Below, in pieces: positions 54,711 through 57,147 of a DNA stretch of 64,000 nt. Position numbers and translations under genes: made by a program. This DNA is from Actinomycetota bacterium (GTDB lineage Bacteria > Actinomycetota > Actinomycetes > S36-B12 > CAIYMF01). The notes beneath the pieces were generated by a model. It worked only from the letters and a program-made list of their open reading frames with translations, made no database searches and was not told where the DNA came from. The stretch is from the NCBI GenBank assembly GCA_026393115.1, contig JAPLAU010000008.1:186001-250000 (forward strand), read 5' to 3'. Position 1 is the first letter of the stretch. Each line of letters begins with the position of its first letter.

Positions 54711-54770
54711 TTCTGTGGGCATTTCTGTGGGCAATTCTGTGGGCAATTCTGTGGGCAATTCTGTGGGCAA
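54711..54770 (+). repeat. Five 12-bp tandem repeats after clpB
   Basis: Units of TTCTGTGGGCAA (first ends in AT). The last unit is also part of the 5' arm of the hairpin at 54758-54806. Confidence 0.95.
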
Positions 54771-54806
54771 TACGGTGCGTTTTACGCACCGTATTGCCCA
54801 CAGAAT
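54758..54806. terminator. Perfect 23-bp hairpin after clpB
   Basis: Arms 54758-54780 and 54784-54806 around a TTT loop. Probable terminator for clpB and for the opposing small gene. Upstream repeat units can replace part of the 5' arm, giving alternative pairings. Confidence 0.75.
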
Positions 54807-55106: not shown

Positions 55107-55322
55107 GTGACCACTTCACGCCGACAGTTCCTCGTCGGTGCCCTTGCGCTCGGATCAGTGATTGCCGTGGGTGCGGCGGGGGTGGGAGCCGCCGAGGCGG
55201 CGACCCTCACGAAGCCTGTCGCCAAGCGCAACTACATCGAGAACGGCTCCTTTGAAGAAGGACCTCTCGGAGTGCCGCGGATTGATGACTGGGTCGTCGT
55301 GACGGCGGTGGTGCCCGTATGA
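55107..55322 (+). CDS. Tat-signal N-terminal fragment of an interrupted secreted protein
   Basis: 71 residues. Twin-arginine signal ([15 protein letters not shown]) through a cleavage region GAAEAA, then [26 protein letters not shown], the first strands of a beta-sandwich (choice-of-anchor/DUF642-like NGSFE..W pattern). It stops at 55322 just as the ubiquitin-like frame begins (ATGA overlap, -1 frame). GTG 55107 is preferred; a -10-like TATCTT ends five bases before it, so translation may be leaderless. Most simply it is the 5' part of a gene split by the inserted ubiquitin-like segment. Confidence 0.7.
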
Positions 55323-55567
55323 GTGGCATGCAGATCTTCGTCAAACCGCTGACAGGAAAGACAATTACCCTTGATGTTGAGTCGTCGGACTCCATCGAAA
55401 ACGTCAAGCAAAAGATTTACGACAAGGAAGGCATCCCGGTCGCGGAGCAACAGCTCATCTTCGCGGACCAGGTACTTCTCAACGGTAAGACACTCGCCGA
55501 TTACAGCATTGTGAAGGAATCAACGCTGAACCTGATTCGCCTCGTGCGCCAGACAGGCATCGTGACG
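55297..55567. repeat. 8-bp direct repeat bracketing the ubiquitin-like segment
   Basis: TCGTGACG at 55297-55304 and again at 55560-55567, 263 bp apart. Removing one copy and the 255 bases between restores a single reading frame from the Tat-signal gene into the beta-sandwich half (GACTGGGTCGTCGTGACG joined to TACACAGAGGCC). Confidence 0.6.
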
Positions 55568-55906
55568 TACACAGAGGCCGGGCTCACTGCGCCCAAGTCG
55601 GGTGGTGGTCGCTTGGCATCTCTCGGTCACAACACCACCATGGGCCAACATGTGCGCGAGTTGACTGCGGGTTCGTACACACTCGGGTTCTACGCTCAAG
55701 GGTCACTGTCTTTCGTCGTACAATTTTTCAACAAGAAGGGCGCCTCAACTGCGCGCTACACCGGCAGTTTCACCGCCATCACCCTTGATCCGTTCAAGCT
55801 GCCCTGTGCGGCACCCAAGGGAAGTGTCTCGGCAAACATCACGTTCTCGACGCTGGCTGACGGTGAGGCGGCCCTGATTGATGTCGTCAGCCTGACGCGT
55901 AACTGA
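55319..55906 (+). CDS. Ubiquitin domain fused to C-terminal half of a beta-sandwich domain
   Basis: 195 residues. After MSG, residues 4-79 (55328-55555) align with eukaryotic ubiquitin without gaps: [57 protein letters not shown]. By hand 50 of 76 residues are identical to human ubiquitin. Lys 6, 11, 27, 29, 33 and 63 and the Leu8/Ile44 patch (Ile at 70) are kept; Lys48 is Gln and the terminal GlyGly is GlnThr, so normal conjugation is impossible. The remaining ~116 residues continue the beta-sandwich begun in the upstream frame ([15 protein letters not shown]). No signal peptide of its own; ATGA coupling to the Tat gene. GC of the ubiquitin segment is 51% by count, lower than surroundings. 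Confidence 0.85.
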
Positions 55907-55923
55907 GTTCAAAGCAGCCTGGC

Positions 55924-55978
55924 TGCAGATCTTCGTTGCGTTCAGCTCATCGACGTCGTCAGCCTCACTAGCGACTAG
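55924..55978 (+). pseudogene. Vestige of a second ubiquitin/beta-sandwich gene copy
   Basis: TGCAGATCTTCGT (55924-55936) repeats the ubiquitin start at 55329-55341. A few bases later a frame reads [11 protein letters not shown] then stop, a near copy of the end [11 protein letters not shown] of the intact gene (19 of 23 bases identical over the core). Only the two ends of a copy appear to remain, as after an internal deletion. Confidence 0.5.
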
Positions 55979-57147
55979 TTAAATGTCTTCTGCAGCCGCG
56001 AGATAGCGGCGTCGAGCACCTCGTACTTCTTGCAAAACGTCCAGCGCACGAAATGGTCGGCTTCACCCCGGTGTTGGCAGAAAGCGTCCACCGGAATGCA
56101 GGCCACACCTGCCTTCTCGGGAAGTCCCCACGCGAAATCTCCACCGTCGTCGTATCCGAGCGGCCGCATATCGCTGACGATGAAGTAGGTACCTTGTGGA
56201 GTAATCGGATCAAGTCCGATCGAGCGCAGCCCGTCGAGCAGGTAGTCGCGTTTGCCCTGCAAATCGGCGGCAAAGCCGGCGAAGTAGTCGCGCGGTAGTT
56301 CAAGTCCGGCAGCGATGGCTTGCTGGAAGGGGCCGCCGCTGACGTAGGACAGGTGCTGACGCACTACGCGCACGGCCGCCATGAGGTCGCGCGGTGCGCA
56401 AGCCCACCCCACCTTCCAACCGGTGAACGAGAAGGATTTTCCACCGCTGCCGAATGTGATCGTGCGCTCGCGCATGCCAGGAAGGGTGGCGATCGACAGG
56501 TGGGTGACTCCGTCGAACAGTAGGTGTTCGTACACCTCGTCACTGAGCACGATGAGATCGTGTTCGATGGCCAGCTTCGCTATGCCGTCAAGCTCGGCCC
56601 GTGTGTATACGGCACCCGTCGGATTATGGGGAGTGTTGATCAGCAGCAGACGCGTTCGCGGCGTAATAGCGGCAGCGAGTGCTTCAAGATCAGGTCGGAA
56701 TCCGGGCCCAAGCGCAACGGTTCGGTAGAGGCCACCTGCAAGGGCCGTCTGCGCCGCGTAAATATCGAATGCCGGCTCGAATGCCAGTAGCTCGTCGCCT
56801 TCATTGAGTAGTCCGAGCAGGGCCGACGCGATGACCTCACTGGCACCTGTGCCGACAACCACCTCGTCCGCTGGGTCGTATTCCAACCCGTACCACTCGA
56901 GCTGGTGTGTGCTGATCGCTGCGCGAAGCGCGGGCTGGCCGTGAGCCGGCGGGTACTGGTTTCCGCGGCCTGAGGTGATCTCGTCAATGGCGATGCGTTG
57001 AAGTTCAACCGGCCCGTCAGTGTCAGGGAAACCTTGACCGAGGTTGACCGAAGAGGTGCGCTGAGCGAGCACGCCCATGTTGCCGAAGATGGATTGTGCG
57101 TAGGGTCGCATCCGCGGCACGAGCCGCTGCAGCTGGTCGTCGCTCAT
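55975..57147 (-). CDS. PLP-dependent aminotransferase class I (DapC-like)
   Basis: 390 residues. Fold-type I with substrate loop NLGQGFPDTDGP, NTPHNPTGAVY, SDEVYEHLLFDG and PLP Lys in SGGKSFSFTGWKVGW; C-terminal Arg in FVRWTFCKK. It is close to the actinobacterial N-succinyldiaminopimelate aminotransferase / kynurenine-aminotransferase-like group; substrate cannot be fixed from sequence. ATG 57147. Stands alone, convergent with the ubiquitin locus. Confidence 0.87.
   Translation of the reverse strand: MSDDQLQRLVPRMRPYAQSIFGNMGVLAQRTSSVNLGQGFPDTDGPVELQRIAIDEITSGRGNQYPPAHGQPALRAAISTHQLEWYGLEYDPADEVVVGTGASEVIASALLGLLNEGDELLAFEPAFDIYAAQTALAGGLYRTVALGPGFRPDLEALAAAITPRTRLLLINTPHNPTGAVYTRAELDGIAKLAIEHDLIVLSDEVYEHLLFDGVTHLSIATLPGMRERTITFGSGGKSFSFTGWKVGWACAPRDLMAAVRVVRQHLSYVSGGPFQQAIAAGLELPRDYFAGFAADLQGKRDYLLDGLRSIGLDPITPQGTYFIVSDMRPLGYDDGGDFAWGLPEKAGVACIPVDAFCQHRGEADHFVRWTFCKKYEVLDAAISRLQKTFN

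Follow-up and report, generated by a model that had tools for sequence, protein, structure and literature searches.

A eukaryotic-type ubiquitin in an actinobacterial operon with a separate Tat-signal gene: a candidate for two-chain export

The window (the whole 64,000-nt stretch analyzed here) contains a ubiquitin of eukaryotic origin that, in our reading, is part of a two-chain protein assembled in the cytoplasm and exported through the Tat pathway; we assign this reading, which extends from the genes to assembly and export, a probability of about 0.5. Gene 1, hereafter the N-half (55107..55322, + strand, 71 aa, GTG start), encodes a twin-arginine signal followed by the first segment of a beta-sandwich, and gene 2 (55319..55906, + strand, 195 aa) encodes ubiquitin followed by the remainder of the sandwich, with no visible signal peptide. 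Gene 1 supplies the opening part that the sandwich of gene 2 lacks, hence the two genes resemble a single protein divided into two pieces. All relatives examined share this two-gene split, which suggests a so far unreported route for the export of folded ubiquitin. Few bacteria have a eukaryotic-type ubiquitin; BfUbb, the only case studied, proved to be a secreted antagonist. No published description of an actinobacterial ubiquitin–sandwich/Tat operon was found in the literature searched (most subscription journals were outside its scope), in line with the novelty supposed in a preliminary description of this DNA.

The ubiquitin domain comprises residues 4–77 of gene 2 (55328..55549, + strand), which lies between a dnaK-grpE-dnaJ-hspR-clpB cluster and an aminotransferase gene. 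In a pairwise alignment, residues 4–79 share 50 of 76 positions with human ubiquitin without gaps. PF00240 matches gene 2 with E=1.4e-20 and 73.2 bits (curated cut-off 25.4 bits), ubiquitins from PDB match at approximately 1e-25, and the predicted structure of the domain has the beta-grasp ubiquitin fold, 0.7–1.5 Å rmsd from solved ubiquitins. The segment is a true ubiquitin, with similarity far beyond chance; membership in a common bacterial beta-grasp family, left as an alternative in the preliminary description, is excluded by the PF00240 match and the structure. The gap-free 76-residue segment, six of the seven lysines, Leu8 and Ile44, and GlnThr in place of the C-terminal GlyGly, all reported there, are seen in the sequence as well; the missing lysine is K48, replaced by Gln, while His68 and Val70 have become Asn and Ile, respectively. 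Just downstream of clpB, at 54711-54771, the 12-base repeat TTCTGTGGGCAA occurs five times, adjoining a hairpin-like inverted repeat.

The only GlyGly in the family is that of the L031/L142 chain, which retains LRLRGG, with further protein after it. As all other chains lack GlyGly, and as no E2 (PF00179) scored over the cut-off in any of 19 carriers, conjugation by the family appears very unlikely, which agrees with the earlier statement that the window protein cannot be conjugated by the usual chemistry. The E2 result likewise excludes a conjugation system as an explanation of the operon. No PADLOC defense model matched the ubiquitin gene (P0001), and a methyltransferase found in many of the operons matches PADLOC mad2 over the shared methyltransferase region only. 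A sub-threshold E2-like match (L094, G001:C293:1783-2010; 1.6e-4) was observed in the sister species of the window genome, and is absent from the window genome itself.

At least 25 genomes, one of them the IMCC26207 strain record, carry relatives of the ubiquitin, and the pair of N-half and ubiquitin-chain genes has been identified in 23 genomes with 26 N-half genes. The preliminary description had noted a Tat-signal gene ahead of the ubiquitin gene, and the upstream ORF at 55107-55322 is indeed present; it had recognized neither that gene 1 carries the opening of the same sandwich nor that the pair is one of a conserved family of operons, in which the halves are often separated by a methyltransferase gene. 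The signal of gene 1, whose start codon is ATG in the sister species (genome G001), matches TAT_signal PF10518 at 0.0033, under the cut-off, and TIGR01409 at 0.025. Its twin-arginine codons (55119..55124, + strand) have counterparts in all 26 N-half genes, and in none of these 26 genes is the N-half fused in frame to ubiquitin. In the window, the start of gene 2 and the stop of gene 1 share an ATGA overlap (55319..55322, + strand) with a frame change of –1, and an identical overlap is found in L004, L005, L008 (twice), L010 (twice), L013, and L138/L040. In 14 loci the methyltransferase gene intervenes, usually with overlaps such as GTGA. This protein has an MTS fold, with the nearest matches, under cut-off, to HemK2/PrmC-type protein methyltransferases, and among the 19 carriers tested it is confined to genomes having it in the ubiquitin operon.

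The halves share one operon in all loci with sufficient upstream sequence, and where a locus encodes two or three ubiquitin chains, it often has just one N-half. In L136 the two genes share a reading frame, with a single TGA between them, and in L006 the N-half stops two codons early. An unsplit parent gene was found neither among 395 sampled Acidimicrobiia nor in 12 carriers. In IMCC26207 the signal of the N-half terminates in LASGC, hence its complex may be a lipoprotein.

The N-terminal sandwich segment of gene 1 (55230..55319, + strand) ends around DDWVVV, and its E and W are invariant in 18 aligned members. The C-half, GIVTY...IDVVSLTRN (55556..55903, + strand), hits the tailspike domain 5w6h when used as a profile, which agrees with the earlier claim that ubiquitin is fused to a part of an extracytoplasmic-type beta-sandwich. 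The profile of the N-half matches the start of the sandwich domain in 9fli (668–677, E=0.0047), and that of the C-half matches 9fli 701–724 at 0.39, so that the two matches are in the correct order; joined, the halves match 9fli 668–742 at 6.8e-5, better than either half. Similarly, the match to 5w6h improves from 1.6e-5 with the C-half alone to 6.7e-7 with the halves joined, and a DUF642 match arises only with joined halves (0.0028, 17.9 bits vs. the cut-off of 27). All these joined-domain matches, of the DUF642/CenC-like kind, are under curated cut-offs, individually weak and mutually consistent, and the two halves probably make up one carbohydrate-binding-type beta-sandwich domain. Foldseek comparison with PDB was dominated by ubiquitin matches, and the sandwich kin surfaced with a viral library. 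When gene 2 is folded alone, residues 76–97, including the conserved GIVTY, are predicted to be disordered. In methyltransferase-linked loci (e.g., L009, L011, L127, L136) gene 2 proteins end in a conserved PNFTG or PTYTG.

The family is distributed unevenly. A scan of the genome collection yielded ten loci, among them that of strain IMCC26207, which is covered in a paper on class Acidimicrobiia. In the class of this strain a match was found in 11 of 395 sampled genomes (including G580), in the family of G777 in 17 of 37 genomes, and in the class of the window genome (G000) in just two of 395, namely G000 and G001. The latter, a congener, has a syntenic copy (89% identity) between clpB and the aminotransferase gene. 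To the earlier question whether related genomes carry the segment, the answer is this copy and many independent assemblies including IMCC26207, and together they exclude an assembly chimera. In the tree, the window group branches next to a methyltransferase-free clade; given this position and the two carriers out of 395 genomes, the operon was likely transferred into the genus of the window genome. No phage or viral carriage was found. Two loci in MAG records titled Bifidobacterium breve (L007, L013) are near-identical to that of IMCC26207, and the titles are probably wrong. The match in G580 looks like eukaryotic contamination: its L043 and L049 are long eukaryotic- or retroelement-like ORFs with a weak ubiquitin domain, and the MAG may be contaminated.

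The ubiquitin has been acquired from eukaryotes by a small group of actinobacteria, mostly freshwater ones, as judged by record titles. Identity to eukaryotic ubiquitin over residues 1–72 reaches 93% (L031 and copy 2 of L035). The sequences fit descent from eukaryotic ubiquitin with subsequent loss of the tail, and the L031/L142 chain agrees with this order. Domain architectures vary: L012 has ubiquitin–sandwich–fn3–Ig-like, with fn3 also present in L031; L041 (322-1344, – strand) has ubiquitin–fn3–LPHTG anchor, and L032 (1492-1965, + strand) has ubiquitin, a T/P-rich linker and a TM helix, both lacking a visible signal peptide and an N-half; L042 combines a signal-anchor with ubiquitin. As predicted from sequence, the fn3, Ig-like, and LPXTG/TM variants point to the cell surface. 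Downstream of gene 2, a second ubiquitin–sandwich gene (55903..55982, + strand) is reduced to two stubs, one from the 5' end and the other from the final 11 codons; approximately 530 bases present between the two stubs in G001 (L004) are absent, and comparison of the two genomes indicates that the second copy has been lost from the window genome.

All three parts of the protein are under purifying selection: in the comparison of the window with G001, dN/dS is 0.117 for the N-half, 0.112 for ubiquitin, and 0.062 for the C-half. Between most genera, synonymous sites of the ubiquitin are near or at saturation. Within the ubiquitin, the core is conserved best (entropy 0.26), followed by the helix-and-loop surface 16–40, with the charged surface residues D21, K27, K29, D32, and K33 nearly invariant across the family. 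Conservation is lower in the Ile44 and Ile36 patches than on other surfaces, and it is lower in the tail as well; K48 is often lost.

Under two-chain export, the overlaps would couple translation of the two genes, the N-half would bind the chain of gene 2 in the cytoplasm so that the two chains complete one sandwich, and Tat, which transports complexes already folded, would carry this one out via the signal of gene 1, that is, by hitchhiker export; in IMCC26207 the N-half partner would be a probable lipoprotein. Outside the cell, the glycan-binding-type domain would then display a folded ubiquitin that has a near-native N-terminus and lacks the conjugation tail. There it would most likely bind a target, whether in the role of a secreted effector or of a surface domain, and would not serve as a conjugated modifier. 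The features expected of a hitchhiker are present: a Tat signal on one partner, one operon, and TatC in the genome, the latter in 18 of the 21 carriers tested (G000 and 17 others). This reading is favored by the twin arginine in every N-half gene together with the lack of fusions to ubiquitin and the methyltransferase between the halves in 14 loci; by L136, where the halves share a frame and are still kept apart by one TGA; by constraint on all three parts; by the ordered match of both halves to one solved domain, better when they are joined; by the disorder of GIVTY in gene 2 folded alone; by the presence of TatC; by the fn3, Ig-like, LPXTG, or TM parts joined to ubiquitin in relatives; and by the precedent of HybOC and PaoABC, for which hitchhiker export is established (PMC4273604). 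A read-through model of L136 (code 4) left the N-half undocked (pLDDT of about 50) and gave a confident sandwich from the C-half by itself; as the underlying alignment was partly out of register, with the first ubiquitin strand shifted in most rows, the undocked N-half weighs neither for nor against assembly. The sub-cut-off scores of the joined domain, the single N-half at many multi-chain loci, the early stop in L006, and the extracellular-type parts of L041 and L032, which have neither signal nor N-half, speak against two-chain export. The preliminary description spoke of ubiquitin embedded in a Tat-secreted sandwich; the fusion and the Tat gene are there, while the embedding holds only if the chains assemble as proposed. 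We also suggest, more tentatively and at less than even odds, that the sandwich has been cut genetically, strands of the Tat chain capturing the signal-less chain by strand complementation and exporting ubiquitin folded, with the methyltransferase modifying the complex in a part of the family.

Two other explanations dispense with the assembly of two chains. Programmed –1 frameshifting or stop readthrough at the overlap would yield a single polypeptide with ubiquitin in a loop of a Tat-exported sandwich, and would account for the export with one signal as well as for the ATGA overlap and frame change conserved in methyltransferase-free loci. However, there is no shared slippery sequence ahead of the overlap, L136 has a plain in-frame TGA, L006 has an earlier stop, and at 14 loci the halves are separated by an entire methyltransferase gene; the methyltransferase-separated loci and L136 exclude frameshift fusion as a general rule, and we consider it quite improbable overall. 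Alternatively, the gene may have undergone fission without reassembly, so that only the N-half leaves the cell and the ubiquitin–sandwich chain functions in the cytoplasm. The signal-less chain, the C-half predicted to fold confidently alone in L136, and the similar start at ubiquitin in L041 and L032 are compatible with it, but the N-half would then hardly be expected to preserve E and W, which are invariant at the beginning of the sandwich, or to show dN/dS of 0.117, the halves would not need to stay in one operon, and extracellular-type domains would not be expected after ubiquitin in relatives, making this explanation unlikely.

Several roles can be considered for the exported ubiquitin. 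By analogy with BfUbb, which is secreted, lacks the terminal glycine and inhibits other B. fragilis strains (PMC5705921), it may be a secreted antagonist of related bacteria, a role compatible with two-chain export; the family likewise lacks GlyGly, is under purifying selection and occurs patchily, but it is fused to the sandwich and in part to anchors, and no immunity gene has been recognized, so that we regard this role as possible without favoring it. A comparably tentative option is that ubiquitin serves a surface protein as an inert and very stable spacer or cap, which fits the best-conserved core and the adjacent Ig-like, fn3, and anchor parts; the near-invariance of D21, K27, K29, D32, and K33 exceeds the needs of a spacer. 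Mimicry, in which the ingested protein engages the ubiquitin-binding proteins of protist grazers, would agree with the high identity to eukaryotic ubiquitin and the mostly freshwater sources, yet the relaxed Ile44 patch disfavors canonical mimicry as a shared function, the Ile36 patch is relaxed too, K48 is often lost, and no delivery system has been recognized; this role seems doubtful. The earlier proposal that it could interfere with the ubiquitin pathways of a host or protist thus finds no specific support, the Ile44 patch being among the less conserved surfaces and BfUbb targeting B. fragilis strains.

The conserved multi-species family, with approximately 30 genes and a named strain record (IMCC26207), makes the question of captured ubiquitin testable outside Bacteroides. 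If split-domain export is true, it would be a natural case of Tat export by domain complementation, informative about the Tat folding check.

Among known systems, BfUbb of B. fragilis (PMC5705921; also described in PMC3352274) is likewise a eukaryotic-type ubiquitin without terminal glycines in a bacterium; BfUbb is exported, while export is inferred here. In BfUbb the cleaved signal is on the same chain and nothing follows the ubiquitin, whereas in the window no signal directly precedes Met1, the signal being on a separate gene, and ubiquitin runs into the sandwich within an operon that in relatives often includes a methyltransferase. Secreted-type proteins of the Ruminococcus albus 7 plasmid pRUMAL01 (L052:4929-5669) and a Pseudoalteromonas replicon (L053:3950 onward) resemble the present family in that the mature protein begins with ubiquitin and continues into extracellular parts, but there the ubiquitin immediately follows a signal peptide on the same chain, and the downstream parts are unrelated. 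The B. fragilis, R. albus, and Pseudoalteromonas ubiquitins appear to get a near-native N-terminus via signal cleavage. HybOC and PaoABC also have a Tat signal on one partner only, but they are enzyme subunits, while here we deal with two apparent pieces of one domain, with their export predicted. The joined halves resemble DUF642/CenC-like sandwiches in sequence pattern and predicted fold, differing in scores under curated cut-offs and in the split of the domain, with ubiquitin at the cut. Finally, some of Pup, YukD, ThiS/MoaD, and the Bil/CBASS conjugation systems share the beta-grasp fold, while the protein studied here is by sequence ubiquitin itself, with no E2 over cut-off and no defense model.
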